IMG/VR virus record: IMGVR_UViG_3300010157_000198
Span: 1 to 28,520 of that record
Reading direction: 5' to 3' (one strand)
Length of the DNA: 28,520 nucleotides
Source: a virus
This document shows, piece by piece, positions 7,069 to 25,977 of this stretch. The notes beneath the pieces were generated by a model. The model searched no databases and was not told the origin of the DNA. It saw only the letters and a program-made list of their open reading frames with translations. Position 1 is the first letter of the stretch; each line of letters begins with the position of its first letter. Position numbers and translations under genes: made by a program.

Positions 7069-7097
7069 TTGACCCAGAAATCGTTTTAATATATAAT
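7069..7097 (+). promoter_or_regulatory. Sigma70-type promoter TTGACC-N17-TATAAT
   Basis: The -35 TTGACC (7069-7074) and perfect -10 TATAAT (7092-7097) are 17 bases apart, close to an ideal sigma70 promoter. The ATG of the next gene starts 5 bases after the -10, where transcription should begin, so the mRNA would be leaderless. Confidence 0.8.
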
Positions 7098-7102
7098 ACA
7101 AT

Positions 7103-7345
7103 ATGGATCAATTTATAACTGAGCTATATTTCAAAATTATCGCTTGTAAACAAGAGCATCAACGTGATTTAAAACGAATGTATACAAATTGCAGACGCAT
7201 ACAAAACGAAATAAGCAAAGAAGATGTTACTTGCCGCAGATTTGGCAAAAATACAGTTAAAAAACAAGAGCTTACACAAGAACTTCAAGAAGCAGTAAAT
7301 ACCTTAGAGCAATATCTAGTATTTGCTACACTCCTAAACGGTTGA
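7103..7345 (+). CDS. Small hypothetical protein, helical and charged
   Basis: I do not recognise this 80-residue protein. It is rich in Lys, Glu, Gln and Arg, with heptad-like runs (KKQELTQELQEAVNTLEQYL near the C-terminus) that suggest a coiled coil. It has two cysteines, at residues 29 and 44, and no membrane segment. It sits immediately after a near-consensus sigma70 promoter whose predicted start site is its ATG, and it has no Shine-Dalgarno. Its stop codon TGA (7343-7345) lies inside the -35 box of the next promoter, an unusually tight arrangement that supports both calls. Small early phage proteins of this kind often bind a host factor, but nothing here shows that. Confidence 0.65.
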   Translation: MDQFITELYFKIIACKQEHQRDLKRMYTNCRRIQNEISKEDVTCRRFGKNTVKKQELTQELQEAVNTLEQYLVFATLLNG

Positions 7346-7370
7346 CAAATAAATACCAAAATGCTATACT
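7342..7370 (+). promoter_or_regulatory. Sigma70-type promoter TTGACA-N17-TATACT
   Basis: The -35 TTGACA (7342-7347) is perfect and lies 17 bases before TATACT (7365-7370). The ATG at 7376 is again 5 bases after the -10 element. The promoter overlaps the stop codon of the preceding gene and drives the exoribonuclease and what follows, probably early in infection. Confidence 0.82.
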
Positions 7371-11429: not shown

Positions 11430-11437
11430 TATTTACC
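11430..11437 (-). promoter_or_regulatory. Late-type octamer GGTAAATA (minus strand)
   Basis: On the minus strand GGTAAATA is followed by ACTGT and then the ATG at 11424. The 5-base gap equals that of three plus-strand late-type genes and would place the transcript start on the ATG. Confidence 0.5.
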
Positions 11438-11479: not shown

Positions 11480-11516
11480 CCTTTATTATAAATAACTGTA
11501 ACATGTAATTTAAAGG
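11480..11516 (+). promoter_or_regulatory. Inverted repeat enclosing the sheath late promoter and its ribosome site
   Basis: CCTTTA (11480-11485) pairs with TAAAGG (11511-11516). With a 2-base bulge, TTA (11486-11488) also pairs with TAA (11506-11508). The octamer TATAAATA starts within the left half of the structure, and the Shine-Dalgarno AAGGA (11513-11517) begins in the right arm. Late initiation near 11500 would leave out the left arm. The stem is AU-rich and weaker than at gp13. Confidence 0.5.
11487..11494 (+). promoter_or_regulatory. Late promoter octamer TATAAATA for the tail sheath gene
   Basis: This is a perfect late consensus, 31 bases before the ATG at 11526. It gives a predicted leader of about 26 bases containing AAGGA 8 bases before the start. 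It is one of only two perfect octamers noted, in keeping with the high need for sheath protein. Confidence 0.72.
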
Positions 11517-11525
11517 AAGATCACC

Positions 11526-14500
11526 ATGGCACTAGTATCCCCAGGAGTATCGATCAGTATTAATGATCAGAGTCAATATGTTGCAAGCAATGTAGGTTCT
11601 GTTCCATTAGTTATCTTGGCAACTGCTCAAGATAAAACATATAACAATTCCGCCGCAACTGGCACAAGCAAAGCCAATGCTGGTAAGCTACAAGCGTTTA
11701 CAAGTCAACGTGACTTGATTACAGCAATGGGCACACCAACATTCCAACTTAGCGCCGCTGGCACACCATTAAATGGTAGCGAGCTAAACGAATACGGTCT
11801 GTTAACAGCATATTCAGCACTAGGTTTAAGCAATCAGTTATTTGCTATTCGTGCAGATGTTAACCTAAACGAGCTTGTTGGTACAAGCAATCGTCCAGTT
11901 GGCATGGTTGACGATGGCACCTATTGGTTAGACTTGGCCAACACAGATTTTGGTATTTACAGTTCAAACGGAACTACACCTGCATCATTTACTAGCGTTA
12001 GTCCATTATTAATTACTGATACATCACAAGTAGTTAATATTAGCGATATTCCGACTCCAATTGCGGCAATTGGCGCACAAGGTAGCTATGCATTAGTATT
12101 TGTTGGAGTAAATAATGCTCCAGTAACAGCCGTGCGTTTGTTCTACAAAGCCACCGCAGTCAACAGCGCAAGCCTAACAAACAGCTGGGTACAAGTTGGT
12201 TCCACAGCATGGCAAACCAGTACTGTCACAGTACAAGGAAATATTCCTAGCCCAACAGTACCAACAAGTGCTTCATTTAAAATTAACAACGTAACTATTA
12301 ACACTAGCGCAATTAATGCTACTGTTGGTGCATTAGCAACGGCTATTAACACAGCCGCAGTCACTGGCGTTACTGCATTAGCAGTACCTGGACAAGGTCT
12401 AGCATTATTTGCCACAAGTGCTGCCGGCACTAATTTGGGCACAATGACATTATCTAACGATGCATCTGGTGTATTTGCTTCTTGCGGTATTACTTTATCT
12501 ACATACCATGCACCTATTATGTCTTACGGTACATTTGCACAAGAACCAAGTGCAGGTTGGTCGGCATATCCAGCTGGTACAATTTGGTGGAAAACAACTG
12601 CAACAGGTAGTGGTTTTAGCCCAGCACTTAAAAAATACAGCATGTCCAAGGATTCGTGGCAAGCTATTCCGGCCCCAATGTATGATTACCCACCCAGTGC
12701 AATTTATGGCCTAGATCCAATTGGTGGCGGCGCAAATCTTGTACACGGTCAAGTAGTTTCTTTCTTTGGTGCTACTGATTCAACTGCTAATAGATTAAGT
12801 TTTAGCGAGCAACAGGTAGGAACACAAACGGTTGCCACTGGTGGTACACCAACTGCGTTCCCGGGAACAGGTTCGTTTACTATCCAAGCAACTGCACCAG
12901 GAACTCCAAATATGAGTTCAGCAGTTACTATTAGCCCAACATCTGGCGCAAGCGGATTCGTTACTGCAATTTTAGCGGCTAACATTCCTTACGTTACAGC
13001 ACAATCTAATACTGATGGTACAGTAAGCGTTATCCATACCAAAGGCGGACATATCGTTCTAGCTCAAGTAACTGGTACGAACTTAGCTAATGCTGGATTT
13101 GTTACAGGTAGCGGATCAGGCTTTGTAGTACTAGACAACGGAAACATTGCTGTTAACAATTGGAACGGTATTACACGTTCTGTTGTTTACAGTTCAACAG
13201 AGCCATATGCCGCCCCAGCAGATGGCACACTATGGTACTACAGCAATCCAACAGACATCGATGTAATGATCAGTGATGTTGGTGGGTGGAAAGGTTACAA
13301 AAACGTTTCTGCAGATATTCGTGGTTACAACTTAGGAAACACAGATCCAGCAGGTGTTATCGTGTCTGGAACACAACCAACTAGCCAATCTGACAGCTCA
13401 ATATTAGAAGCTGGCGACTTATGGTTGGATACATCAGACTTAGTAAACTTCCCGGCTCTATCACGTTACAATGGTACTGCATGGGTAGCAATTGATAACA
13501 CTGATCATATTAGCAACAATGGTATTATTTTTGCTGATGCACGGTGGGACGGTACAGCCGGCAGTTCAGTTGGTAATACCACTGATGTTGCCGCAGGCGT
13601 ATTGCCTTCAACAGTTACACTATTAACAAGTAATCATACTGATGTTGATTGCCCAGATTATCGTTTATATCCACGTGGAACAATCTTGTTCAACACACGT
13701 CGTTCAGGCTACAACATTAAGAAATTTGTAGGCAATTACTTTACTCAGTTCTCTGGCACGTCCGGATATGTAGTTAAAGATGCTTGGGTTAGTGTAAGTG
13801 GTCTTAAAGAAGATGGTACTATGTATGCTGGTTCCGCCGCACAACGTAACATTGTTGTTGCCGCAATGAAATCAGCTGTTGACAGCAACACTGATGTACT
13901 AGATGCAAACTATAATTTTAACTTGTTAGTTGCTCCTGGTTATCCAGAGTTAATTCCTAACTTGGTAACATTAAACAACAACCGTACAAGTACAGGTTTT
14001 ATTATCGGTGACACGCCAATGACATTGGCACCAAACGTAACTGATATTACAGCATGGGAAAGTAACAAAAATGGTAACGGACTAGCAACAGCTAGCCCAT
14101 ATCTAGGTGTATATTACCCAGCTGGTTTAACAAACGACTTGGCAGGCAACACAGTAGCAGTACCAGCAAGTCACGCAGTATTACGTACATTCTTGTACAA
14201 TGACCAAGTTGCATATCAGTGGTTTGCTCCAGCTGGTGTTAACCGTGGCCTAGTAAGCAACCTAAGTGACATTGGTTACGTTGATATCAACTCAGGTGCA
14301 TTTGTACACAACGGTGTTAACCAAGGTCTACGTGATGCATTGTACAGTATTAACGTTAACCCAATTACACAATTGCCTGGCACAGGATTAGTTGTATGGG
14401 GTCAAGAAACACGTAGTGGTGCTGAAACAGCACGTAATCGTGTAAACGTTGTTCGCTTAGAAAACTACTTACGTACAATCTTTGCCACAATCAGCAATGG

Positions 14501-14775: not shown

Positions 14776-14783
14776 GATAAATA
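14776..14783 (+). promoter_or_regulatory. Late promoter octamer GATAAATA for the tail tube gene
   Basis: This lies 8 bases after the sheath stop and 18 bases before the tube ATG. The predicted transcript starts near 14789, just ahead of the strong AGGAG (14791-14795). It lets tube protein be made independently of sheath. Confidence 0.62.
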
Positions 14784-14801
14784 AGAGTATAGGAGAATAT
14801 T

Positions 14802-15416
14802 ATGGCCGTAGCAAGTTTAAGTAAGTTTACAGTTCCTTTAGCGAACAACCAGTCAGCAGACAATCAAGGTCTGTTAATGCCAAAATTATCGTATCGCTTC
14901 CGTGCGAACTTTATCAACTTTGGCGTTACAAACCAAACAAACGAATTGACTAAGCAGGTTGTTGATATCAAGCGTCCAAACGTAAACTTTACACCAATTA
15001 CACTTGATGTTTACAACAGTAAGGTATACTTACAAGGTAAACCAGAGTGGCAAGAAACAACAATCAACTTACGTGATGACAGCACCGGTGCAGTTAGTAA
15101 GTTAGTTGGGCAACAAGTTCAGAAACAGTATGACTTTATGGAACAAGCTAGTGCGGCAGCTGGTATTAACTACAAGTTCCAACTAACATACGAAATGTTA
15201 GATGGCGGCAATGGTACAGTTATGCCTAATGTTCTTGAAGCATGGGAATTAGACGGTTGCTTCCTAAGTCAAGTTGACTGGGGTTCAATGGACTACAAGA
15301 GTAACGATCCAGTGCAAATCGCTTTAACAATTCGCTTCGACAATGCTATTCAAACAGTTGGTGGCGGCGTTGGTACTAGCGTAGTTAGCATGACACCTGG
15401 TTCTAGTGTAAACTAA
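14802..15416 (+). CDS. 19: Tail tube protein gp19
   Basis: gp19 polymerises into the inner tube through which DNA passes. The 204 residues are longer than T4 gp19 (163) but like those of marine relatives. The core includes LMPKLSYRFRANFINFG (residues 25-41), VVDIKRPNVNFTPITLDVYN, PEWQETTINLRDDSTG and a C-terminal WELDGCFLSQVDWGSMDYKS with a final strand PVQIALTIRFDNAI. These are the conserved strands of the tube fold. AGGAG lies 6 bases before the ATG. It follows the sheath gene as in T4 and ends with a strong terminator. The next gene carries a diverged copy of the same fold. Confidence 0.9.
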   Translation: MAVASLSKFTVPLANNQSADNQGLLMPKLSYRFRANFINFGVTNQTNELTKQVVDIKRPNVNFTPITLDVYNSKVYLQGKPEWQETTINLRDDSTGAVSKLVGQQVQKQYDFMEQASAAAGINYKFQLTYEMLDGGNGTVMPNVLEAWELDGCFLSQVDWGSMDYKSNDPVQIALTIRFDNAIQTVGGGVGTSVVSMTPGSSVN

Positions 15417-15468: not shown

Positions 15469-15476
15469 CATAAATA
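15469..15476 (+). promoter_or_regulatory. Late promoter octamer CATAAATA
   Basis: This lies 5 bases after the terminator's T run, with TTAGT and then ATG at 15482. Initiation 6 bases after the octamer would fall on the start codon. Since the terminator blocks read-through, this is the likely source of the downstream mRNA. Confidence 0.6.
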
Positions 15477-15481
15477 TTAGT

Positions 15482-16921
15482 ATGAACCAACAACCGCAAG
15501 AAACTATTTTACGTAGCTATCAACATGGTAAGAAAATATTTGTTGATAGTAACTTCCGACTGAGTCCCAAGTATGGTTTTTTATTCTATGTTGAGTTTGA
15601 CTTCAATCCGCTAATTACTGAAATTAGCAATCAAGCCGCGCAAGAACTAGGCATGGTAGTTAAGTCAGTGTCGTTGCCAAAATTTTCAATTGATACCAAA
15701 GTACATAATGCGTATAATCGCAGAAATCTTGTACAGAACAAAATTAACTATGATCCAGTAAACATTAGTTTCCGTGATGACCAAGCAGATAACGTAAAAC
15801 AATTTTGGTATGACTACTATAGTTATTTCTATCGCGACCCAGACTATGCTGACGCAACATATTCGGCACAGCACAAATATCAAAGCCGTCCAAGTTTTGA
15901 CTGGGGATACAGTCCACGACCAGCAGTAGGATACAATAATGCAAATGGTACACAACCAGTACAGTATATACAAGCAATAAGAATTTATAGTTTATACCAA
16001 GGTAACTTTAGCGAATACCAATTAGTCAATCCAATGATTACTAGATTTGCTCATAGTGATCACGACATTAGCAACAGTGATTTTATGTCAATGGACATGA
16101 CAGTAAACTATGAAACCGTGAAATACTTAGAAGGAAAAGTTACAAACAATACAGTGGGTGGATTCATGGATTTGCATTACGATACTACACCAAGTCCATA
16201 CCCTAGTTACCCAGGCACTACACAAAATGCTCCGCAATCTAGCTCTAACACAAATCAAATAACAGATTTAGCCAACAATCAAACGGCTATCATGCCATTT
16301 ATTCGCAGTGACGTTGCGCTACAAGCGGCCAGCGGAAACCCGTCTAATGCAGTTGCACCATTATTTAATCAAGTAACTAACGGCATGGCAGGCGGCGGAA
16401 ATGGTGGCGGTTATAGTATACCAAGTCTTGGCAGCTTAACACAAGGTGTTACTGGTAGTGCGGTGCTAGGACAACAATTACAATCTGCTGGTATTGGCCT
16501 AGTAGGAAGTGCTACCAGTACATTAGCAAACGGTATTACCGGCGCAATAGCAAAAGGGCTTGGGCCCAATGGTTCAAGTATTGTGGGTATGGCCGCAAGT
16601 ATTATTGCTAATCCAAATCAAGCATTAAAGACTATTGAAAACATGGCTACCTCATTGGTACTTGGTATTGGTATGAATTATTTAAATACAAAAATTGCAG
16701 AAGGGGTAGGAATATTATCGGGGGGTATTGAAAAAGGTGTAGCTGGTGGTGTAACCTCGTTATCAACAGCATGGGGTGATTCGTCGACTACACTTGGCGG
16801 TATAAACCTTGGAGTAAGTAATTTTCTTAACAACAATCTTCCGATTAATCTCAATACTAGTTTTGTGCCAGCCTCTCGGTTAGCGTTCGACCCATTGACT
16901 CATACTGATTCGGACTTCTAA
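15482..16921 (+). CDS. Baseplate tail-tube initiator, gp54-like
   Basis: gp54 sits on the baseplate and starts tube growth; it shares the gp19 fold. In this 479-residue protein, residues 18-130 carry FVDSNFRLSPKYGFLFYVEF, VVKSVSLPKFSIDTKVHNAY, then VNISFRDDQADNVKQFWYDY. The last two parallel the gp19 segments next door. Residues 131-235 are strand-rich (RIYSLYQGNFSEYQLVNPMI). The rest is a Gly/Ser/Asn-rich region and a hydrophobic glycine-rich C-terminus (about residues 300-430), which T4 gp54 (320 residues) lacks. No Shine-Dalgarno is seen; the ATG follows a late octamer by 5 bases. gp48 is the alternative identity, since both initiators share the fold. Confidence 0.7.
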   Translation: MNQQPQETILRSYQHGKKIFVDSNFRLSPKYGFLFYVEFDFNPLITEISNQAAQELGMVVKSVSLPKFSIDTKVHNAYNRRNLVQNKINYDPVNISFRDDQADNVKQFWYDYYSYFYRDPDYADATYSAQHKYQSRPSFDWGYSPRPAVGYNNANGTQPVQYIQAIRIYSLYQGNFSEYQLVNPMITRFAHSDHDISNSDFMSMDMTVNYETVKYLEGKVTNNTVGGFMDLHYDTTPSPYPSYPGTTQNAPQSSSNTNQITDLANNQTAIMPFIRSDVALQAASGNPSNAVAPLFNQVTNGMAGGGNGGGYSIPSLGSLTQGVTGSAVLGQQLQSAGIGLVGSATSTLANGITGAIAKGLGPNGSSIVGMAASIIANPNQALKTIENMATSLVLGIGMNYLNTKIAEGVGILSGGIEKGVAGGVTSLSTAWGDSSTTLGGINLGVSNFLNNNLPINLNTSFVPASRLAFDPLTHTDSDF

Positions 16922-16923
16922 CT

Positions 16924-17325
16924 ATGTCATCTAATAGCCAGTCAACAACAGCAACGAACATAACGGCACCTGACCTTACTCCTGCGACCGCAAAAAACAA
17001 AGCACCAAAATATTTTAATAATTTTTATGCCACTCCGTTTAATGTAAGTGCAGGTACCAATGATGCTATTGTTGCATTCTTTGAAAAATATACTCAAAAT
17101 GCCACTGCTGGAAAAAACATGGCATCGGCAGTATTGTATACTGCAATGGCACAAAATATTGATCCAATGTCAGTACTAAGTGAATTTCAAAATTTACCTC
17201 GGGGCGAGTTAAATTCATACCTTGCGGCATTCCTAAATATTAGTCGAGCACCCACTAGTAGCCTTGGTATTAACAACGGCACCAAAACAACCAGCACATA
17301 TATATCTAGAAGTATTATTTTATAA
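16924..17325 (+). CDS. Conserved small phage structural or assembly protein
   Basis: This 133-residue protein starts 2 bases after the gp54-like stop and shares a TAATG with gp4 downstream, so translation is coupled. The first 40 residues are polar and disordered (Ser, Thr, Asn, Ala). Then comes a compact helical domain: AIVAFFEKYTQNATAGKNMA, SAVLYTAMAQNIDPMSVLSE, and LNSYLAAFLNISRAPTSSLG. I recall similar small proteins in marine T4-like tail gene clusters, with no known function. The short helical domain and its place between baseplate and head-completion genes suggest a virion assembly role, which is inference. Confidence 0.7.
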   Translation: MSSNSQSTTATNITAPDLTPATAKNKAPKYFNNFYATPFNVSAGTNDAIVAFFEKYTQNATAGKNMASAVLYTAMAQNIDPMSVLSEFQNLPRGELNSYLAAFLNISRAPTSSLGINNGTKTTSTYISRSIIL

Positions 17326-17759
17326 TGTCCAAATACGCACAAGGCAAATTTCAACTACAAAATCCAGCAAAGTATGTAGGCAACAAAACTCCAACTTATC
17401 GTAGTAGTTGGGAATTTGTGTTTATGCAATTTTGTGACAACAATCCCAACATTATAAATTGGGCAAGCGAAGCAGTTCGAATCAACTACAAAAATCCATT
17501 AACTGGTAAAAATACAATTTATGTCCCAGATTTTTTAATTACCTACGGTGATGCTACTGGCAAGCAACACGCCGAAGTAATTGAAATTAAACCCAAAAAG
17601 GAAACCACTTTGGAGGGTGCCAAGAACATTCGTGACCAGGCAAGTGCTATACTTAATATGGCAAAATGGGAAGCCGCCCGTGCCTGGTGCCGAGCTCACG
17701 GAGTTACCTTCCGGGTAGTTACGGAAGATATGATTTTCGCCCAGGGCCGCGGCAAATAA
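17325..17759 (+). CDS. 4: Head completion protein gp4 (gp50/gp65 type)
   Basis: T4 gp4 finishes the packaged head before tails attach. This 144-residue protein matches its length (150) and signature: MSKYAQGKFQLQNPAKYVGN at the start, TYRSSWEFVFMQFCDNNPNI at residues 24-43, then INWASEAVRINYKNPLTGK. It has the layout of a PD-(D/E)xK nuclease of TnsA type: E30 in the first helix, PD at 68-69, and E-I-K at 87-89. This suggests it trims or seals the DNA end, an idea known for the family and not tested here. Start ATG overlaps the preceding stop by one base. Its own stop lies inside the late octamer of the next gene. Confidence 0.88.
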   Translation: MSKYAQGKFQLQNPAKYVGNKTPTYRSSWEFVFMQFCDNNPNIINWASEAVRINYKNPLTGKNTIYVPDFLITYGDATGKQHAEVIEIKPKKETTLEGAKNIRDQASAILNMAKWEAARAWCRAHGVTFRVVTEDMIFAQGRGK

Positions 17760-17762
17760 ATA
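17755..17762 (+). promoter_or_regulatory. Late promoter octamer AATAAATA
   Basis: It overlaps the gp4 stop codon and is followed by TTGGT and ATG at 17768. The arrangement is nearly the same as at 15469 (octamer, TTAGT, ATG). Predicted initiation is on the A of the start codon. Confidence 0.55.
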
Positions 17763-17767
17763 TTGGT

Positions 17768-18265
17768 ATGACTAAAAAATTAGAATCACTATTTAACTTA
17801 CCCCCAGAAACCAACATAGATATTACAGTTGAAGAAAGCACAAGTTTTGTTGAGCAAAATCGCGAGCTAATACTTGATGTTGATAATGCTATTGATCGAA
17901 TAGATGCGGCCCTGCCCACAGTACACGATTTAGATACCGGCGATGCTGAATTAGATGTACTGGCTAAACTAGCACAAAGTAAAGCTGAAGATCTAATAGA
18001 TTTGGGTATGAATGTAGAACCACGTTTTTCAGGTGTTATACTACAAACAGCCGGTATTATGTTAGGGCATGCCATTACAGCTAAAACAGCTAAACTAGAT
18101 AAGAAGCTTAAAATGGTACAGTTACAGTTAGCTAAGGCTAAACTAGATCACCAAATTAAAAAAGACGCTGGCACACCAGAAGAACAGGCAGTAGAAGGCC
18201 ACGGTGTAGTACTAGATCGCAATGATTTACTAAAACAGATACTTGCAAACAAGCCCAGCAAATAA
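17768..18265 (+). CDS. Small terminase subunit, gp16-like
   Basis: gp16 recognises DNA and regulates gp17 during packaging. This 165-residue protein has the T4 length (164) and the same layout: an acidic N-terminus, a central helix pair (ELDVLAKLAQSKAEDLIDLG, then a short turn with NVEPRF), and a long C-terminal coiled helix (LDKKLKMVQLQLAKAKLDHQ) fit for a ring oligomer. It also lies within the tail-packaging gene run, as in T4, though gp17 is 3.6 kb further on rather than adjacent. The frame is open upstream to 17666, but the ATG at 17768 is chosen because it leaves gp4 intact and sits 5 bases after a late octamer. No Shine-Dalgarno is present. Confidence 0.65.
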   Translation: MTKKLESLFNLPPETNIDITVEESTSFVEQNRELILDVDNAIDRIDAALPTVHDLDTGDAELDVLAKLAQSKAEDLIDLGMNVEPRFSGVILQTAGIMLGHAITAKTAKLDKKLKMVQLQLAKAKLDHQIKKDAGTPEEQAVEGHGVVLDRNDLLKQILANKPSK

Positions 18266-18274
18266 GCCATCAGA

Positions 18275-18282
18275 GCTAAATA
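18275..18282 (+). promoter_or_regulatory. Late-type octamer GCTAAATA
   Basis: It retains the TAAATA core but differs from consensus in the first two bases. It lies 22 bases before the ATG at 18305 and would yield a short leader with AGGA near 18292-18295. It is a weaker call than the other octamers. Confidence 0.42.
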
Positions 18283-18304
18283 TACAATATACAGGATTAA
18301 TACA

Positions 18305-18892
18305 ATGTTAAAGCCATTCCAAACTTACATTTTTGAACTAAGCAAGCCAAGCGAGTTCCGCATTAAATTAGCCGGCATCAACCCAACTGGTGAAGTAATG
18401 GACAAAATTAAAAATGCGCTTGAAGCATACCAACTTGAAAGCGTAAGTGCTGTTAAAAGTTTACCAATCCAAGAACACCGTGACTTCCCACAATGGGGCG
18501 GCCCATGCGAAGCATACCAATTTGATGTTACATTAACATACCCAACTACAAACATTGTAGTACGTCAACTTATTAAAGAACGTGCTGGCATTAATGTTGA
18601 TTGGATTAATGTACGTAATTTAAATGAAGCAAACTATACCGACGAAGCCGAAGCAAATGGTAAAGACCATGAAGGCGCCTTACTAGACGAAACTGAATTA
18701 AAAGATGCGCCAGACGCACAAGCACTAGCTGGCCAAAGTCGTATTGGTAGTTTATTAAAAGAATTAGAATCTCGCAAGTTTGAGTTTGCCCAGGAAAGTA
18801 AAGAAGCTGGTAAGACAACAAACAATGCTCCAATGGGTGACAAAAGTCCAGTTGGAACAACGCAAAATAAAGTTTATAAAGTAAAAGGTTAA
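18305..18892 (+). CDS. Conserved hypothetical protein, possible head or scaffold factor
   Basis: I know no function for this 195-residue protein. Residues 1-105 form a compact domain: MLKPFQTYIFEL, DKIKNALEAYQLESVSAVKS, PIQEHRDFPQWGGPCEAYQF, DVTLTYPTTNIVVRQLIKER. The strand-helix-strand pattern suggests a ferredoxin-like fold. The remaining 90 residues are acidic then polar and look disordered, ending in Lys-rich NKVYKVKG. It is the first gene of a three-gene run with AAGG or TAATG spacing, between terminase subunits, in the region where T4 carries head assembly genes. A scaffold or core role is possible but not shown. Confidence 0.65.
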   Translation: MLKPFQTYIFELSKPSEFRIKLAGINPTGEVMDKIKNALEAYQLESVSAVKSLPIQEHRDFPQWGGPCEAYQFDVTLTYPTTNIVVRQLIKERAGINVDWINVRNLNEANYTDEAEANGKDHEGALLDETELKDAPDAQALAGQSRIGSLLKELESRKFEFAQESKEAGKTTNNAPMGDKSPVGTTQNKVYKVKG

Positions 18893-18896
18893 GACA

Positions 18897-20894
18897 ATGA
18901 GCAAGAACCACCCAAACGATAATATGTATTCCATTCTTGGAAAACTAGAGGCACTAAAGCCAACACCTGAAGAGAAGCGTTTTGCTCTTGTAAAAGAAAT
19001 TCGCGAAAGTGTTGAAGCTAAGGGCTCTGTACTACAGGGTGTTGATGCTGTTCAAGCTCGTCTAGCGAAACAATTTTCTGAAACAACTACTAACGAAGCT
19101 ATTCGTGTTGCTGGCAATACAAAAGGTCCAGTTGGTCATTACTCGCAAATGAAACATGTTGGTAAAGATGGTAGTCCCGAAGCACAATCACATCGTGATG
19201 CTACTGCTGGCATGGCCCGGTCGGCACGTGCCGCTGGTAGCAAATTACCTTTTAACAAAACAACAGAGCCAACGGGTAAACTTGCCCCGGGTGGTTACAA
19301 TGCAATGACCAAAGGTGTTACACCTATTAGAACTAGCACAGAAGAATGTGCTATGTGCGAATCTGGTAACTGCGAAGAACACGGAATGGTTGAGGGCGAA
19401 ACAACATACAAAAACGGTGTAACTACACATCGTAAAACAGATTTCCCAGGATATCCAGTTGATGACAATGATGATATCGAAGATACAAACAAAGGCAAGC
19501 GCGGCCGCCCACGCAAGCATGCCGTTAAAGTAGCTAAGACTGATGCCGAAGGCAATAAACTAGGACGCGGTCGTCCAGCTAAAGTTAAAGCACCAACATA
19601 CACTAAGATGTCCGATCCATTTGGACGTACAACAGGTGCTGTTCCTAAACCTAAAGTTAAAGGTCGTGTACATACATTAGACGAAGCAATGTCTATGGTA
19701 GAAACAAATTTAACTGAAGGCCGCCATATGGTCGACGAGTCAGGCGAAACACTAAAACATATTTTAAATCGTTTCAAACATGAAGTTAAATCATTCGAAG
19801 AGGGACACGATCTAGGCGATCTTTTGTTTGATGCATTGTTTGATTACTATTGTGACAATGGCGAAATGCCATACGGTACAGCTAAAGCACGTGATGGAGA
19901 CCCATACGAATGGATCTCAGACCGTTTACATCAAGAATTGGGTACAGACGAAGCAATTGATCCCGCTAACCCACGTGACTATGACATTCCGGCATATATG
20001 CGTAAGGCATCTGGACAAGCACCGTTAACACAACGTGATGTTATGCAAAAAGATAAAAAGCCAGAACATGATTTTTATCAACGTCGTACAGGTGAAACAC
20101 ATCCAGACGCATTAAAAACTGAACTAGATGAACTAGCTCAACTAGCTGGTTTAAAAACTGAAGGCAATGCGTTCAGCGGCAAATTAGCTAACACAGCCAA
20201 AGGCGATAGTTTTGAGCAAGATGGTGAAACATTTACCAACAACAGCAGTATTGCTGATAAAGAATTAGACGAAGAAGAAACAGACGAAGGCAACGCATTT
20301 GGTCAAGCAGTACGTAATGCCAAATCTGATGGTGTACAAGCCGGCGAAAAAGTCAAAGTTGACGGAAAAGAAATTCCTGTAAAAGAAAGCATGGAACTGC
20401 CAGGCAGCGAAGAAAGCAACTTTAATATCAGCACAAGTTTAAGTAGCGATGGTAACAAAAACGTTACTGTTAGTGCTACAGGTGAACATGCCGCTAGTTT
20501 ATTACAGATGTTACGTATAGCCGGTCTAGGCGATGGTGCTAAAGCACAAGAGCTACAAGCCGAACCAGAAATGGGCCAAGAAGAACCGGGCATTGAAGTT
20601 ATTGGTATTGAGCCAGAACAAGAAGTCGACGAATCTGGAATTGATGTTGACGATGCTGGCGCAAATCCTGTAAATGCACCCAATCCACAATATGCTAGCA
20701 TGAAAGGTTCTACTATGGGACCAGGCGAGGGAGATGCCGGAGAGAAAGCAATGAATCCAGATCGCCCTACCAAGAACAACGGCGACAATGCATTAGCAAC
20801 TCCTCCATCAAGAGCACAAAAAACTCTTATTGCAGTTTCTGCACTAGAATCAAAACTTGCCGCAGAATACGAAAGTATTAAGAAACTTAGCTAA
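18897..20894 (+). CDS. Large disordered, acidic virion-type protein with AT-hooks
   Basis: I do not recognise the whole 665-residue protein; parts recall marine phage proteins. Residues 1-70 (MYSILGKLEALKPTPEEKRF near the start) are a helical domain. C151, C154, C159 and H162 form a C-x2-C-x4-C-x2-H cluster that could bind zinc. KRGRPRK (201-207) and GRGRPAK (223-229) are AT-hook motifs that bind the minor groove of AT-rich DNA. Residues 265-355 are an ordered helical domain with HDLGDLLFDALFDYYCDNGE. LAQLAGL and MLRIAGL motifs follow, within a long acidic, low-complexity half. AAGG precedes the ATG and the stop is coupled to the next gene (TAATG). An internal head or scaffold protein with DNA contact is a reasonable guess. 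Confidence 0.62.
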   Translation: MSKNHPNDNMYSILGKLEALKPTPEEKRFALVKEIRESVEAKGSVLQGVDAVQARLAKQFSETTTNEAIRVAGNTKGPVGHYSQMKHVGKDGSPEAQSHRDATAGMARSARAAGSKLPFNKTTEPTGKLAPGGYNAMTKGVTPIRTSTEECAMCESGNCEEHGMVEGETTYKNGVTTHRKTDFPGYPVDDNDDIEDTNKGKRGRPRKHAVKVAKTDAEGNKLGRGRPAKVKAPTYTKMSDPFGRTTGAVPKPKVKGRVHTLDEAMSMVETNLTEGRHMVDESGETLKHILNRFKHEVKSFEEGHDLGDLLFDALFDYYCDNGEMPYGTAKARDGDPYEWISDRLHQELGTDEAIDPANPRDYDIPAYMRKASGQAPLTQRDVMQKDKKPEHDFYQRRTGETHPDALKTELDELAQLAGLKTEGNAFSGKLANTAKGDSFEQDGETFTNNSSIADKELDEEETDEGNAFGQAVRNAKSDGVQAGEKVKVDGKEIPVKESMELPGSEESNFNISTSLSSDGNKNVTVSATGEHAASLLQMLRIAGLGDGAKAQELQAEPEMGQEEPGIEVIGIEPEQEVDESGIDVDDAGANPVNAPNPQYASMKGSTMGPGEGDAGEKAMNPDRPTKNNGDNALATPPSRAQKTLIAVSALESKLAAEYESIKKLS

Positions 20895-21322
20895 TGAAAC
20901 AATATAGAATCACCAGTGAACACTTTGTACCACAAGGCGAAACTGGTGATGCCGATGCTTTCATTGACCCCACAGAATTAAACGAACTCAAACGCCTAGC
21001 GGGCTTACCATTTAGTATTGGCGAGTCAACTGGTAATATGAGCCAACCTGGTCCTGTAGGTGGCATGTTGGATCAAGTTCCGCAAGCTGGAGAAAATGGT
21101 ATTGTTAGTCCTGTGGGCACAACAGATCAGGCCAATGCTGGTAGCAATATCAGTTATACTGCACAAGAGCGCAATGCACTAGAAGCAGAATACTGTGCCA
21201 AACCCGGCGATGACCTATGGTTTATAATTAACTTTAGTCGACCATTCTTAAATGGTAGCCTGCGTGACAAGTGTGAAGACTATCTTCAAGCCCACCCAGA
21301 ATATCGGCCGCGCACTCGTTAA
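20894..21322 (+). CDS. Small hypothetical protein with LxxLAGL motif
   Basis: I do not recognise this 142-residue protein. Its start overlaps the stop of the AT-hook gene, so it is translationally coupled to it. Residues 29-40 read LNELKRLAGLPF, the same short motif found in the preceding protein and at the C-terminus of the 481-residue protein downstream. A Gly/Pro/Asn-rich linker follows. The last 50 residues (AQERNALEAEYCAKPGDDLW, FIINFSRPFLNGSLRDKCED) form a small domain with two cysteines. The gene ends tail to tail with the HNH gene, sharing TTAA. The shared motif and coupling suggest it works with its upstream partner. Confidence 0.6.
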   Translation: MKQYRITSEHFVPQGETGDADAFIDPTELNELKRLAGLPFSIGESTGNMSQPGPVGGMLDQVPQAGENGIVSPVGTTDQANAGSNISYTAQERNALEAEYCAKPGDDLWFIINFSRPFLNGSLRDKCEDYLQAHPEYRPRTR

Positions 21323-21849
21323 GCCGCGTCTAACTCGGGTCTTCCAAGGTACTGATACCAACTATCTTGTTTGACACTAAACGGCATTTTCTTCCACTGG
21401 TTAACAAGACTATAATAATCAGGCTTGTATGGTTTAATCAACGGTTTAATCAATTTACTACCCTTGGCATGATTACATGATTTACAACTGGTAACACAGT
21501 TTTCCCATTGGGTCTTGCCACCACCGCTACGTGGGATAACGTGATCAATGGTTAAATCTTCATAATCAAACACATCGTCGCAATATTGACATTTGAATAA
21601 ATCACGCATATATAAGTTATATCTGCTAAATTTAACAGATTTTTTATAATGGAAATAATCTTTGGTCACGCAGATACTAGGAACATTTATAGCTAAACGT
21701 TCGCTGTGTAGTATCCAGTCTGGATAGGTTTCGATAACATGAACCTTTCCCAAGTACATTAGCTTTATGGCATGCTGCCAGTTAATGACACTTAGGGGTA
21801 GTACGCTGATTGGTTCGTAGTTGCTGTTAAGTAGTAGTGTGTCTGACAT
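21319..21849 (-). CDS. HNH endonuclease
   Basis: This 176-residue protein should cut DNA with a single metal ion. Residues 1-80 are the N-terminal domain common to this bacterial and phage HNH group (LLLNSNYEPISVLPLSVINW, then DWILHSERLAINVPSI). The HNH part has C87-x2-C90, LTIDHVIPRSGGGKTQWENC with D102-H103 and N117, and C122-x2-C125-N126-H127, so both zinc pairs and all three catalytic residues are present. It stands alone on the minus strand just before gp17. This is typical of a free-standing homing-type nuclease, but HNH proteins next to terminase also help packaging in some phages. A weak GGGTAA lies before the ATG. It overlaps the convergent neighbour by 4 bases. Confidence 0.88.
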   Translation of the reverse strand: MSDTLLLNSNYEPISVLPLSVINWQHAIKLMYLGKVHVIETYPDWILHSERLAINVPSICVTKDYFHYKKSVKFSRYNLYMRDLFKCQYCDDVFDYEDLTIDHVIPRSGGGKTQWENCVTSCKSCNHAKGSKLIKPLIKPYKPDYYSLVNQWKKMPFSVKQDSWYQYLGRPELDAA

Positions 21850-21874
21850 TTGATTACCCGTTGGTGTATTCGAA

Positions 21875-21903
21875 GTTAAATATACTTATATGACAAGTAT
21901 AAC
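21875..21903 (+). promoter_or_regulatory. Overlapping divergent promoter region with 7-bp inverted repeat
   Basis: GTTAAATA (21875-21882, plus) could drive gp17 late. TATAAGTA read on the minus strand at 21890-21883 could drive the HNH gene. TATACTT (21881-21887) and AAGTATA (21895-21901) form a 7-bp inverted repeat with a 7-base centre, which may be an operator or a hairpin. TATAAC (21898-21903) is a possible -10 without a good -35. All these are moderate to weak. Confidence 0.4.
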
Positions 21904-21915
21904 ACAAAACTGTTT

Positions 21916-23478
21916 ATGAGTAAAGAACTAGAAACGGCAATTATTAAGGCACCGTATAAACGGATGTCTTATACTGAAGTACAAATCAGGGAATTAGCCC
22001 GATGTGCTGACCCAGAAACGGGCCCATCTTACTTTATGGATAATTATTTCCATATACAACATCCGACTAAAGGTGCTATACAATATCATCCATTTGAGTA
22101 CCAGGAACGTCTAGTTAGCACATATCACAATTATAGATTCTCTATATCACTAATGCCTAGACAAACGGGCAAATCGACCAGTGCCGCAGGCTATTTGCTT
22201 TGGTATGCTATGTTTGTTCCTGATTCAACTATTCTTGTTGCCGCACACAAGTATCTAGGCGCACAAGAAATTATGCAACGTGTACGCTATGCTTATGAGA
22301 ATTGTCCAGACTTCATACGAGCCGGAGTTACTAGTTATAACAAAGGTAGCTTGGATTTTGAAAACGGAAGCCGTATTGTAAGTCAAACAACAACAGAAAA
22401 CACAGGACGCGGTATGAGTTTATCACTCTTGTACTGTGACGAGTTTGCATTCGTTCGTCCGACCATTGCCAGCGAATTTTGGACTTCCATCACTCCTACA
22501 CTAGCAACTGGTGGTAAGTGTATTATTACATCAACACCAAACTCAGATGAAGATCAATTTGCACAAATTTGGCGTAGTGCTAATAAATGCTTTGATGAAC
22601 AAGGTAACGAAACTGAATTAGGGCAAAACGGATTTAAAGCATTCCGTAGCGCCTGGCAAGAACATCCGGATCGTGATGAGAAGTGGGCCGCACAAATGCG
22701 AGCACAGTTAGGCGAAGAACGTTTTAGACGTGAGATGGAATGTGAATTCATTATCTTTGATGAAACATTAATTAATCCATTACACCTAGTTGAAATGGCC
22801 GGAATTGATCCTATAGAAAAACAAGGACAAATACGTTGGTATAAAAAGCCTGCAAAAGATCATACTTACGTAGTTGCACTAGATCCCAGCCTAGGAACAG
22901 GTAGTGACCCAGCGGCTATACAAGTATTTGAAATGCCCGGGCTTAAACAAGTAGCAGAGTGGCGGGATAATAAAACTATTGTTCAACGACAGGTAGTTAT
23001 TATGAAAGAGATTTGCCAGCATCTAGTAGATGTAACTGGAACAAATAATGTGTACTATAGTGTTGAAAATAATACACTAGGTGAAGCCGCTCTGGTTGCT
23101 ATAAATGAACTTGGGGAAGAAAATATCCCGGGTACATTCCTTAGTGAGCCACGTAAAGGTGGTGCCGGTGTGCGTTATCGCAAGGGGTTTACTACAACAA
23201 ACAAAAGCAAACTAAGTGCCTGTGCCAAGTTTAAAAGTTTAGTTGAAACCAAAAGACTGCATATTGCCAGTAAAGCTCTAATTAGTGAATTAAAGACATT
23301 TGTAGCAAGTGGTAACAGTTTTTCGGCTAAAATAGGTGAACACGATGACTTGGTTATGAGTGCATTGCTAGCAATACGCATGATTATGCTGTTACAGCAG
23401 TTTGATGCAGGATTAGATGGCGAACTTAAAGATAGTATAGATAATTTTATTGAACCTATGCCGTTCATAATGATATAA
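21916..23478 (+). CDS. 17: Terminase large subunit gp17
   Basis: gp17 is the packaging motor ATPase and the nuclease that cuts concatemers. The 520 residues are shorter than T4 (610) but usual for marine relatives. The ATPase domain has the variant Walker A MPRQTGKST at residues 80-88, Walker B LLYCDEFAF with D175-E176, and coupling motif TSTPNS at 205-210. The nuclease domain has VALDPSLGTGSD with D323, YSVENN with E384, and GEHDDLVMS with D477 and D478, so the acidic triad is intact. The start lies 66 bases from the divergent HNH gene, with no good Shine-Dalgarno. gp16-like subunit is separated from it by four genes, unlike the adjacent pair of T4. Confidence 0.96.
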   Translation: MSKELETAIIKAPYKRMSYTEVQIRELARCADPETGPSYFMDNYFHIQHPTKGAIQYHPFEYQERLVSTYHNYRFSISLMPRQTGKSTSAAGYLLWYAMFVPDSTILVAAHKYLGAQEIMQRVRYAYENCPDFIRAGVTSYNKGSLDFENGSRIVSQTTTENTGRGMSLSLLYCDEFAFVRPTIASEFWTSITPTLATGGKCIITSTPNSDEDQFAQIWRSANKCFDEQGNETELGQNGFKAFRSAWQEHPDRDEKWAAQMRAQLGEERFRREMECEFIIFDETLINPLHLVEMAGIDPIEKQGQIRWYKKPAKDHTYVVALDPSLGTGSDPAAIQVFEMPGLKQVAEWRDNKTIVQRQVVIMKEICQHLVDVTGTNNVYYSVENNTLGEAALVAINELGEENIPGTFLSEPRKGGAGVRYRKGFTTTNKSKLSACAKFKSLVETKRLHIASKALISELKTFVASGNSFSAKIGEHDDLVMSALLAIRMIMLLQQFDAGLDGELKDSIDNFIEPMPFIMI

Positions 23479-23486
23479 GATAAATA
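23479..23486 (+). promoter_or_regulatory. Late promoter octamer GATAAATA
   Basis: It starts on the base after the gp17 stop codon and is followed by GTTTT and ATG at 23492. The 5-base gap again puts the predicted first transcribed base on the start codon. No ribosome site fits between them. Confidence 0.6.
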
Positions 23487-23491
23487 GTTTT

Positions 23492-24937
23492 ATGTCTAAA
23501 GAAATTGAATCCATTGCAACTGCATTATTTGAGAAAATACGCTCAAGATTTACCAACGTAACCTTGGGCGATGAAAAAGCTCAGGCTGAACAAGATCCAG
23601 AAAAAGCCCGTTTCTTTAATTTTACATACACAGGACGTGATGGTGCAAAATTTGGCACAGTGACTATTAGTTTAATTGATGAAACTAGTTTAAAAGTGTA
23701 CTTTGGCCAAAACATTTCTGCAGACATGGACCGCGACCAACGCAAAGAATGGTACGAATTTTTACGCAATTTAAGAATGTTTGCAAAACGCAATTTATTA
23801 ACATTTGACACCCGCGACATTAACAAATCCAATTTAAAACTACAAGACGTTAAACAGCAAGCTCGAGTTGACGACGTATCTACTACAGATGATATGCCTG
23901 TAACAGAAAGTAAGTTATACGGTACTCCGGGACGTCCATACAATAGCTTTGCTGATAAAGGCAATACTAAAATTTTAATCCGTCACGCAGACAAAGTAAA
24001 CGATGAAATTCGCGGAAGCCGCGCAAGACGCATCCAAGAAATTTTCTTAGAAACCGAACGCGGCGAACGCTTCCTATTAGGACACAAAAACTTACACGGT
24101 GCTTATGCAATGGCCGAGCATTTAAATGCTGGCGGTACAATGTATGATGAACGTGCAAAACATATTGATAATTTAATTGCTGAAATGTCAGCAATGCGAC
24201 ACTTTGTTCGTAGCACTAAACATCGTCAATTTGAAGATGAAGAAACAGCAGATATGACTCGTTGTGCTGTACACCATTACGATCAAATTAAACGCAAGTT
24301 GCGTGTAATGCGTGGTGCTCGCGGATACAAAAGTTATTTTGAAACTTTAGAACCGGAATCTCAACAAGACAATCAAATTGATGTAGATGCACTACGTGAA
24401 CGTTTTGTTAAAAAGACATACGATGATCGTTTTACAGAAGCACTACCTATTGTATATAAAGCATACAAAAAATATCAATCAGAATCAGCCGGGCAACTAG
24501 GCGATGAGTTGTCTGAGTGGGCAGATGAAGTAACTGAAGGTACTTGGATTAAACCGGATACATCAGATAAAGCAACAGCACTACAGCAACTATTAAAATC
24601 GCCAATTACATCTAGTACAGCAAAAGATCGTTTAGAACCGTTAATTGGTAGCGATGCATTAAATGATGCCTTGGCTAACTATCAAGATCAACCTGATTAT
24701 GATGTACGTCCCGTAGTTAAAAAATGGTTACAAGACAATATGCCAGAGTTAGCCGGCAAGTTAACATACGGCGAAAATAATGTTGATGATGCTGGCACAA
24801 ATTGGGTAGCCGCAACAAGCCCGCAAATGGCGCATCCAACTGATACATACGGTGCAAGTTCTTTAGAAGAACCAAATGTAAATGAATCCCAGGACAGTTT
24901 GGATTTTATTCGTAGCCTTGCTGGCATCCGTCGTTAA
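23492..24937 (+). CDS. Conserved hypothetical phage protein, 481 aa
   Basis: I recall this family from T4-like phages of marine and alphaproteobacterial hosts, with no known function. An N-terminal alpha/beta domain includes YFGQNISADMDRDQRKEWYE and FLRNLRMFAKRNLLTFDTRD, at about residues 70-112. A linker leads to SKLYGTPGRPYNSF and NTKILIRHADKV, then a basic helical domain around IRGSRARRIQEIFLETERGE and MAEHLNAGGTMYDE. Many Arg and Lys residues suggest nucleic acid contact. The C-terminal part is acidic and ends FIRSLAGIRR, sharing the LAG motif with two proteins upstream of gp17. No Shine-Dalgarno; the ATG follows a GATAAATA octamer by 5 bases. Late expression and a virion or packaging role are inferred. 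Confidence 0.7.
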   Translation: MSKEIESIATALFEKIRSRFTNVTLGDEKAQAEQDPEKARFFNFTYTGRDGAKFGTVTISLIDETSLKVYFGQNISADMDRDQRKEWYEFLRNLRMFAKRNLLTFDTRDINKSNLKLQDVKQQARVDDVSTTDDMPVTESKLYGTPGRPYNSFADKGNTKILIRHADKVNDEIRGSRARRIQEIFLETERGERFLLGHKNLHGAYAMAEHLNAGGTMYDERAKHIDNLIAEMSAMRHFVRSTKHRQFEDEETADMTRCAVHHYDQIKRKLRVMRGARGYKSYFETLEPESQQDNQIDVDALRERFVKKTYDDRFTEALPIVYKAYKKYQSESAGQLGDELSEWADEVTEGTWIKPDTSDKATALQQLLKSPITSSTAKDRLEPLIGSDALNDALANYQDQPDYDVRPVVKKWLQDNMPELAGKLTYGENNVDDAGTNWVAATSPQMAHPTDTYGASSLEEPNVNESQDSLDFIRSLAGIRR

Positions 24938-24940
24938 ATA
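24933..24940 (+). promoter_or_regulatory. Late-type octamer GTTAAATA
   Basis: It overlaps the stop codon of the preceding gene and lies 17 bases before the ATG at 24958. Predicted initiation near 24946 leaves a leader of about 12 bases without a Shine-Dalgarno. It would serve the three-gene glycan cassette. Confidence 0.45.
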
Positions 24941-24957
24941 CAACTAAACAATCATTT

Positions 24958-25977
24958 ATGGAAATTATAAAGTCAACCAATGGCTTTCCTTACGCATGGA
25001 AAGCTGGCCGTGTCGAGCATCTAATTAGACAAATACTAGAATCAAAAATCAAGCAACAGCTTACAGTAGAGCGAGCCATGATTATTAATCCTACATGGCT
25101 ACACGAAAACGATTTATCAGTGCAAATTACTAGCGCAGATCCCGGGTTTGTTATTTGTCACAACTTTGTAGACCCGGCAGTACCAAAAATATTTGAAGCA
25201 GTTGAACAATGCGGTCGCCCCAATCTTATTATAGGTAATGCTGATCAATACCGTTTAGATTTTTGGGCAATGGTATGCGACTTTTACTTCCGTGATTACC
25301 CCGACTACGAGCTAGCTCCACACACCAATGCACGTAAGTTTATTTGTTTAAATCGTAAACCGCATCAACATCGTGTGGCACTAGTAGAACGTTTGCTAGC
25401 AGTTAAAGATGAAGGATTCATTAGTTTAGGGTTACCCGGTGATCGTGCGCTAACAATAGACACAGACTTTGATCCAGACCAAGGTATTAACGATGAGTTT
25501 GGCAACATGGGCACAGACGAAGGTACAGTTAGCCGTAAGATTAAAAATGATATCTTTAGCCTAGGCGACTTGGCCAATTGGAATCGTAGCTTATTATGCA
25601 TAGTAACAGAAACAGAGTTTTCTAATACTAACCCTGAGAACTTCTTTATGAGTGAAAAGACTTGGAAGCCAGTATTGGGTCTACGTCCTTTCTTTGTCTA
25701 CGGACAACCTCGCCTGCGCGATTACTTAAAAGCACAAGGCTTTGATATATTCGAAGATATATTTGACTACAGTATTGTAAACGAACGTGCTGGCGATAGA
25801 GAACAGCAACAGCAATATGCCACAGTGGCACTCAATGGCATTGCAAAGATAAACAATCCATACCAAGACTATCAAAAGTATTTTTATCGTTGTGTACTAA
25901 ATCGTGTACGCTTCCATGCTTATGTATATGAGCAATGGGATCGACTAAACACATTGGATCTAACTCAGTATGTTTGA
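24958..25977 (+). CDS. Putative glycosyltransferase (fucosyltransferase-like C-terminus)
   Basis: This 339-residue protein probably transfers a sugar from a nucleotide donor. Residues 127-147 hold KFICLNRKPHQHRVALVERL, the RxxHR-type turn seen in phage sugar transferases. Residues 228-247 read NFFMSEKTWKPVLGLRPFFV, followed by YGQPRLRDYLKAQGFDIF; this matches the donor-site pattern of GT10-like enzymes (a TEK-type motif, then PxxxG and a GF-x-x-F end). No signal peptide or membrane segment is seen. The stop region overlaps the next gene by 8 bases, making a tight cassette with an SGNH hydrolase and a second transferase. It may decorate the virion or host surface, or act on modified DNA bases. 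Acceptor unknown. Confidence 0.6.
   Translation: MEIIKSTNGFPYAWKAGRVEHLIRQILESKIKQQLTVERAMIINPTWLHENDLSVQITSADPGFVICHNFVDPAVPKIFEAVEQCGRPNLIIGNADQYRLDFWAMVCDFYFRDYPDYELAPHTNARKFICLNRKPHQHRVALVERLLAVKDEGFISLGLPGDRALTIDTDFDPDQGINDEFGNMGTDEGTVSRKIKNDIFSLGDLANWNRSLLCIVTETEFSNTNPENFFMSEKTWKPVLGLRPFFVYGQPRLRDYLKAQGFDIFEDIFDYSIVNERAGDREQQQQYATVALNGIAKINNPYQDYQKYFYRCVLNRVRFHAYVYEQWDRLNTLDLTQYV

Follow-up and report, generated by a model that had tools for sequence, protein, structure and literature searches.

Promoters spaced for transcription to start on or near the start codon predict leaderless mRNAs in a lineage of T4-related phages

In a viral DNA stretch of 28,520 nucleotides (IMG/VR record IMGVR_UViG_3300010157_000198; hereafter the window), a first-pass annotation pointed out four genes with a late-type promoter octamer exactly five bases before the ATG and no Shine-Dalgarno (SD) sequence. 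This raises the question whether promoters are placed here such that the transcript begins with the start codon itself. Comparison of the window with related contigs and whole phage genomes indicates that promoters in this phage lineage are very probably set for transcription to start on or near the AUG, which would give leaderless mRNAs. The window is a fragment from a T4-related phage, whose terminase shares 54% identity with its counterpart in Pseudomonas phage PA5oct and 52% with the one in Sinorhizobium phage Phosso. A literature search of open-access papers found no description of leaderless late mRNAs in T4-like phages, in agreement with the annotation.

Late promoters and gene starts in the window

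Spacing is given as k, the number of bases separating TAAATA and ATG. The four octamer-N5-ATG sites, at ATGs 15482, 17768, 23492 and, on the minus strand, 11424, were all found in the sequence as claimed (Table 1). Across all sites the octamer keeps its TAAATA core, preceded by two variable bases, most often GA, AA, CA or GC. The window contains TAAATA-N5-ATG five times, where 0.69 occurrences were expected, and none of 100 shuffles reached that number. The motif marked the start of 4 of the 28 genes, compared to 0.1 expected under a first-order Markov null (maximum of 1 in 60 simulations), an expectation on the generous side, as a gene may contribute more than one in-frame ATG. No gene begins at the fifth match (7350-7363), which falls within a sigma-70-type promoter spacer and opens a frame of just 3 codons.

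That other late genes such as sheath and tube keep leaders with ribosome sites was borne out by SD-led starts, which in addition to sheath and tube include 1480, 2656, 9090, 18305 and 7033 (minus strand), with SD-like AGGA, GGAG or GAGG. A late-type hexamer at 24935-24958, overlapping the stop of the 481-aa gene, is separated by 17 bases from ATG 24958, has no recognisable SD and fits neither class. At 21883-21919, a TAAATA-N7-ATG opens a 9-codon frame, the TGA of which overlaps the terminase ATG. Short leaderless frames that might be coupled to a following gene (21890 ahead of the terminase, 7361 ahead of 7376) were no more frequent than at control spacings and were treated as chance.

As to gene identities, the label gp16-like for the gene at 17768 was left unconfirmed by its PHROG, a family of unknown function, and the family search gave no match for the cysteine-rich gene. 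A portal identity for the 481-aa protein was dropped, as the phage CBB gene at the same post-terminase position encodes a separate virion protein and the CBB portal lies elsewhere.

Table 1. Promoters and genes in the window with their start-codon spacing; leaderless assignments are predictions.
Feature	Position	Strand	Remarks
Late-type octamer CATAAATA, then TTAGT-ATG	15469..15476	+	5 bases before ATG 15482
Late-type octamer AATAAATA, then TTGGT-ATG	17755..17762	+	5 bases before ATG 17768
Late-type octamer GATAAATA, then GTTTT-ATG	23479..23486	+	5 bases before ATG 23492
Late-type octamer GGTAAATA, then ACTGT-ATG	11430..11437	-	5 bases before ATG 11424
Tail tube late promoter (contrast)	14776..14802	+	k = 18, AGGAG ribosome site, ATG 14802
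Tail sheath late promoter TATAAATA (contrast)	11487..11526	+	31-base spacer with AAGGAAG, ATG 11526
Led late gene 18305 (contrast)	18275..18305	+	k = 22, AGGA; orthologues led almost without exception
Sigma-70-type promoter TTGACC-N17-TATAAT	7069..7097	+	5 bases before ATG 7103
Sigma-70-type promoter TTGACA-N17-TATACT	7342..7370	+	5 bases before ATG 7376
gp54-like / tail-tube-related gene, 479 aa	15482..16921	+	Predicted leaderless; PHROG 4542 tail tube, E 5e-14; ATG is first in-frame start of ORF
gp16-like gene, 165 aa	17768..18265	+	Predicted leaderless; PHROG 16202 (function unknown)
Virion structural protein gene after terminase, 481 aa	23492..24937	+	Predicted leaderless; PHROG 13484
Cysteine-rich gene, 116 aa	11074..11424	-	Predicted leaderless
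80-aa gene	7103..7345	+	Predicted leaderless under sigma-70-type promoter
RNase H-like gene, 169 aa	7376..7885	+	PHROG 2259; predicted leaderless under sigma-70-type promoter

Spacing in related contigs and whole genomes

The spacing survey was performed on the terminase surroundings in 80 related viral contigs, counting only ATGs that open at least 60 codons; contig genes were called mechanically as the longest non-overlapping frames. The distance between TAAATA and ATG proved bimodal: non-redundant sites numbered 166 for k = 4-8, fell to 19 for k = 9-16 and rose again to 119 for k = 17-30. These counts, like those for the cyanophage and Pelagibacter phage sets below, include near relatives, were thinned only of identical sites and hence do not represent independent events. 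Each short k value is represented by 4 to 15 gene families. Control hexamers gave no independent peak in these contigs; the overlapping ATAAAT necessarily gives the same peak moved by one base. The scan of related genomes against chance that had been proposed as a check finds the class conserved far above chance, with a peak at short spacings and a valley at k = 9-16. The rule of exactly five bases holds for the four window sites but not for the relatives, where 4, 5, 7 and 8 all recur. In five large contigs, TAAATA at k = 5 was the most position-enriched hexamer upstream of starts, with AAGGAG at k = 6 ranking below it. Frames of at least 60 aa are opened by 77 of the 88 ATGs at k = 5, compared to about 20% at k = 9-17, which rules out that the ATG is merely the initial sequence of the promoter.

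The count in G001, a 354-kb relative, is of different genes in one genome and so is free of near-relative redundancy: spacings of k = 4-8 were found for 38 genes, where 8.4 were expected, those of k = 10-14 for 3, where 8.8 were expected, and those of k = 17-30 for 49, the expectations being generous here too. The pattern recurs in four other large contigs. T4 and Syn9 each have one gene at k = 4-8, and 80 cyanophage contigs yielded 3 sites at k = 4-8 versus 187 at k = 17-30; T4 and cyanophages have the short-spaced arrangement rarely if at all. Pelagibacter phage HTVC008M and its close relatives have 38 sites at k = 4-8 versus 3 at k = 17-30, and a set more distant from HTVC008M has 41 short-spaced versus 7 long-spaced ones. 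The spacing peak is little or none in the nearest cultured relatives (PA5oct, Phosso, Atu_ph07, SCTP-2, 121Q and CBB).

Class membership was also followed gene by gene. Of 80 orthologue loci of the cysteine-rich minus-strand gene, with identities reaching down to 43%, 74 have k = 4 (47 loci) or k = 5 (27 loci). For the 481-aa gene, about 65 of 73 loci show k = 4-7 and about 8 show k = 19-21 with an SD; for the gp16-like gene, k is 4-8 in 37 of 41 loci. Many terminases of the related contigs have short spacing as well. The gp54-like gene switches class, with k = 5-6 in 14 of 34 orthologue loci and SD-led starts in others. All tail tube orthologues having a site show k = 18-29 and an SD.

Sigma-70-type promoters at start codons

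The leaderless arrangement had been described for late genes. It is not confined to them, as sigma-70-type promoters are placed likewise: two such promoters, at ATGs 7103 and 7376, had been overlooked in the window, and putative early genes are predicted from them to be leaderless too. In the related contigs, sigma-70-type promoters (TTGAC-N-TATNNT) peak at k = 6, with 17 of 21 sites at k = 4-7, i.e. one base further out than the late class. The spacing, its conservation, the missing SD, the contrast between classes and this one-base shift are direct observations.

Predicted transcription starts and translation

In the cryo-EM structure of the T4 late complex, adenines of the -10-like element are at -12, -9 and -8 (PMC7892883), from which we deduce that the octamer TATAAATA occupies -13 to -6, leaving five bases before +1. 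With a gp55-type late octamer ending at -6, +1 would be the base after five spacer bases; with a sigma-70 TATAAT at -12 to -7, it would follow six bases. As the sigma-70 hexamer ends one base earlier relative to +1, a peak at k = 6 is predicted for this class. A translation signal or a stop codon is disfavoured by a spacing that shifts with promoter class, since neither would shift. A gp55-like sigma factor is encoded in G001 (31% identity, E 4e-13) and G002 (30%, E 5e-12); the homologue search found none in G003-G005, which are possibly incomplete contigs, and none in the window fragment.

The base before the ATG at k = 5 is a pyrimidine (T 87%, C 12%), and spacers end in TACT-ATG at k = 7 and in TTACT-ATG at k = 8. 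All three fit a start with T at -1 and A at +1, from which we infer leaders of 0 or 3 bases. Spacings of 7 and 8 recur with ACT directly before the ATG, those of 6 and 9 being rarer, which suggests a 3-base leader, ACU-AUG, as the preferred alternative to a leaderless start. RNA polymerase would accordingly be expected to initiate at the start codon's A or at most about 3 bases ahead of it. The first-pass annotation, which had placed the start on the A itself, is upheld by promoter numbering and spacer bases as far as a start at the AUG, or no more than about 3 bases from it, is concerned, but the start would not always fall exactly on the A. The resulting mRNAs would have neither leader nor SD, such that their translation would need recognition of a 5'-terminal AUG, and the other late genes, mostly sheath, tube, neck and fibre, would have SD-bearing leaders about 12-25 bases long. 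For the short-spaced genes, longer mRNAs could also arise by read-through from promoters further upstream.

Nothing beyond the octamer's own TAA resembles an SD at 140 of 159 short-spaced sites, and long-spaced sites (k = 17-30) are mostly SD-led, with AGGA, AGGAG or GGAG. Bimodal spacing and SD presence or absence together support the proposal that late genes fall into two classes by their starts, one leaderless and one SD-led. Start codons at k = 4-8 in five large contigs comprise 89 ATG, 1 GTG and 8 TTG, with no GTG/TTG peak, a weak indication given how rare GTG and TTG starts are overall. In G001, leaderless-class genes have less structure over their first 45 nt than other genes (-2.93 versus -4.42 kcal/mol, p=0.0014). 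Missing SD, strictness for AUG, weak 5' structure and long frames are consistent with, rather than proof of, initiation at a 5'-terminal AUG. The actual 5' ends, leaderless translation and any regulatory purpose are what we infer from these patterns.

Alternative explanations

It is highly improbable that TAAATA is no promoter here and reflects a TAA stop with tight gene packing or an A/U-rich element that enhances translation. The upstream gene's TAA stop does overlap TAAATA at 35 of 159 short-spaced sites, and AU-rich sequence near the AUG aids SD-less initiation. However, most sites are not at a stop, and TAA stops that lack the following ATA show no peak at the matching distance, which rules out a stop-codon artefact; moreover, the same motif stands 17-30 bases before SD-led genes with the SD lying in between, and a different promoter hexamer peaks one base further, as for a fixed transcription start. 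With the promoters real, functional mRNAs might still stem mostly from upstream read-through, translation being coupled to the upstream gene, as dense gene packing and several upstream stops within or past the octamer would allow. We consider this very unlikely, as coupling would leave the promoter-to-AUG distance unfixed, the cysteine-rich gene, in which the spacing is conserved most strictly, lies on the strand opposite its neighbours, and a terminator-like GC hairpin and T-run precede the gp54-like promoters. That the start codons are misassigned, with true SD-led starts further downstream or upstream, is hardly conceivable: the ORFs at 17768 and 11424 do reach upstream of the ATG used, but orthologous N-termini align from exactly these ATGs (MTKKLEELFNLP, MREINKIAEGLF, MSKEIESIATAL, MLTRELCPLCHT), even in orthologues with an SD-led start there, the conserved gp16-like N-terminus MTKKLEELFNLP starting exactly at 17768, and the k = 5 ATGs of HTVC008M are its deposited gene starts.

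A further explanation concerns the cause and not the arrangement: hosts may use leaderless mRNAs widely, the phage conforming without a programme of its own. This is a real possibility, if somewhat short of probable, given that some groups of bacteria commonly have leaderless genes (PMC3160421) and that one group of SAR11 phages shows this class almost exclusively; against it, strong SDs are kept for another gene set in the same genomes, and class membership is conserved gene by gene.

Distribution of genes between the classes

Returning to promoters set for a start on or near the AUG, we asked which genes have them. The leaderless class of G001 includes terminase, bS21, ATP-dependent protease, methyltransferase, radical SAM protein, acetyltransferase, deoxyribonucleotidase, an endonuclease-like protein and a small number of virion proteins, and the led class includes tube, neck, fibres, spikes, other virion proteins and endolysin. 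Sorted by PHROG into structural versus enzyme or terminase, the leaderless class has 3 to 7 and the led class 12 to 1 (Fisher p=0.006, in a small, hand-sorted, post hoc table). The direction is that of the earlier suggestion that low-copy proteins are leaderless and bulk proteins led, but the gp54-like gene switches class, and HTVC008M-like phages have predicted leaderless starts at nearly all late promoters seen, structural genes included; a low-copy versus bulk split is weakly indicated. We tentatively propose, as a possibility on the unlikely side, that leaderless initiation is a programmed, genome-wide class served by sigma-70-type and late promoters, in which mainly catalytic and packaging genes would use a 5'-AUG and bulk virion genes an SD, possibly tuned by late changes in ribosomes or initiation factors.

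Comparison with known systems

The gp55/gp33/gp45-dependent late promoters of T4 share the core octamer, with +1 five bases after it, and gp55-like sigma factors occur in two large relatives; unlike in this lineage, the late promoters of T4 and Syn9 are about 20-29 bases from the AUG. Bacterial leaderless genes, e.g. in Actinobacteria and Deinococcus-Thermus, are preceded by a TA-like signal, some 10-12 bp before the start (PMC3160421). As here, the distance of the -10 element puts +1 on the AUG, with no SD; the difference is that a T4-related phage would employ both the late octamer and sigma-70-type promoters, with an SD-led class alongside. Since bacterial leaderless genes have already been inferred from such -10-to-start spacing (PMC3160421), the phage case is a variant and not a new kind. 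The cI mRNA of phage lambda is leaderless, beginning at the AUG (PMC9031893), but is a single gene, whereas tens per genome are predicted here. AR9 and phiKZ are likewise large phages with late promoter types of their own, the late promoters of phiKZ being a TATG motif read by the phage polymerase; AR9 is not leaderless, its UTRs of 26-491 nt ruling it out as a precedent for leaderless late mRNAs (PMC5312081).

If 5' ends map as predicted, a large uncultured T4-related group and SAR11 pelagiphages would rely on leaderless mRNAs for many or most late genes, unlike the textbook picture of T4, and HTVC008M would be a cultured test case. The octamer plus 4-8 bases would then be a simple rule for true gene starts in such genomes, and orthologues switching between leaderless and SD-led starts would offer a natural comparison for why a phage picks either.

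Several of these phages encode the ribosomal protein bS21 (L107, L416, L422). A link to the class was discarded: HTVC008M, G001 and G005 have a bS21 gene, but one is also present in PA5oct, Phosso, Atu_ph07 and SCTP-2, which have little or no class, and the comparison shows no association. The G001 bS21 gene (L107, 232944-233180, minus strand) itself falls into the leaderless class, with k = 7.
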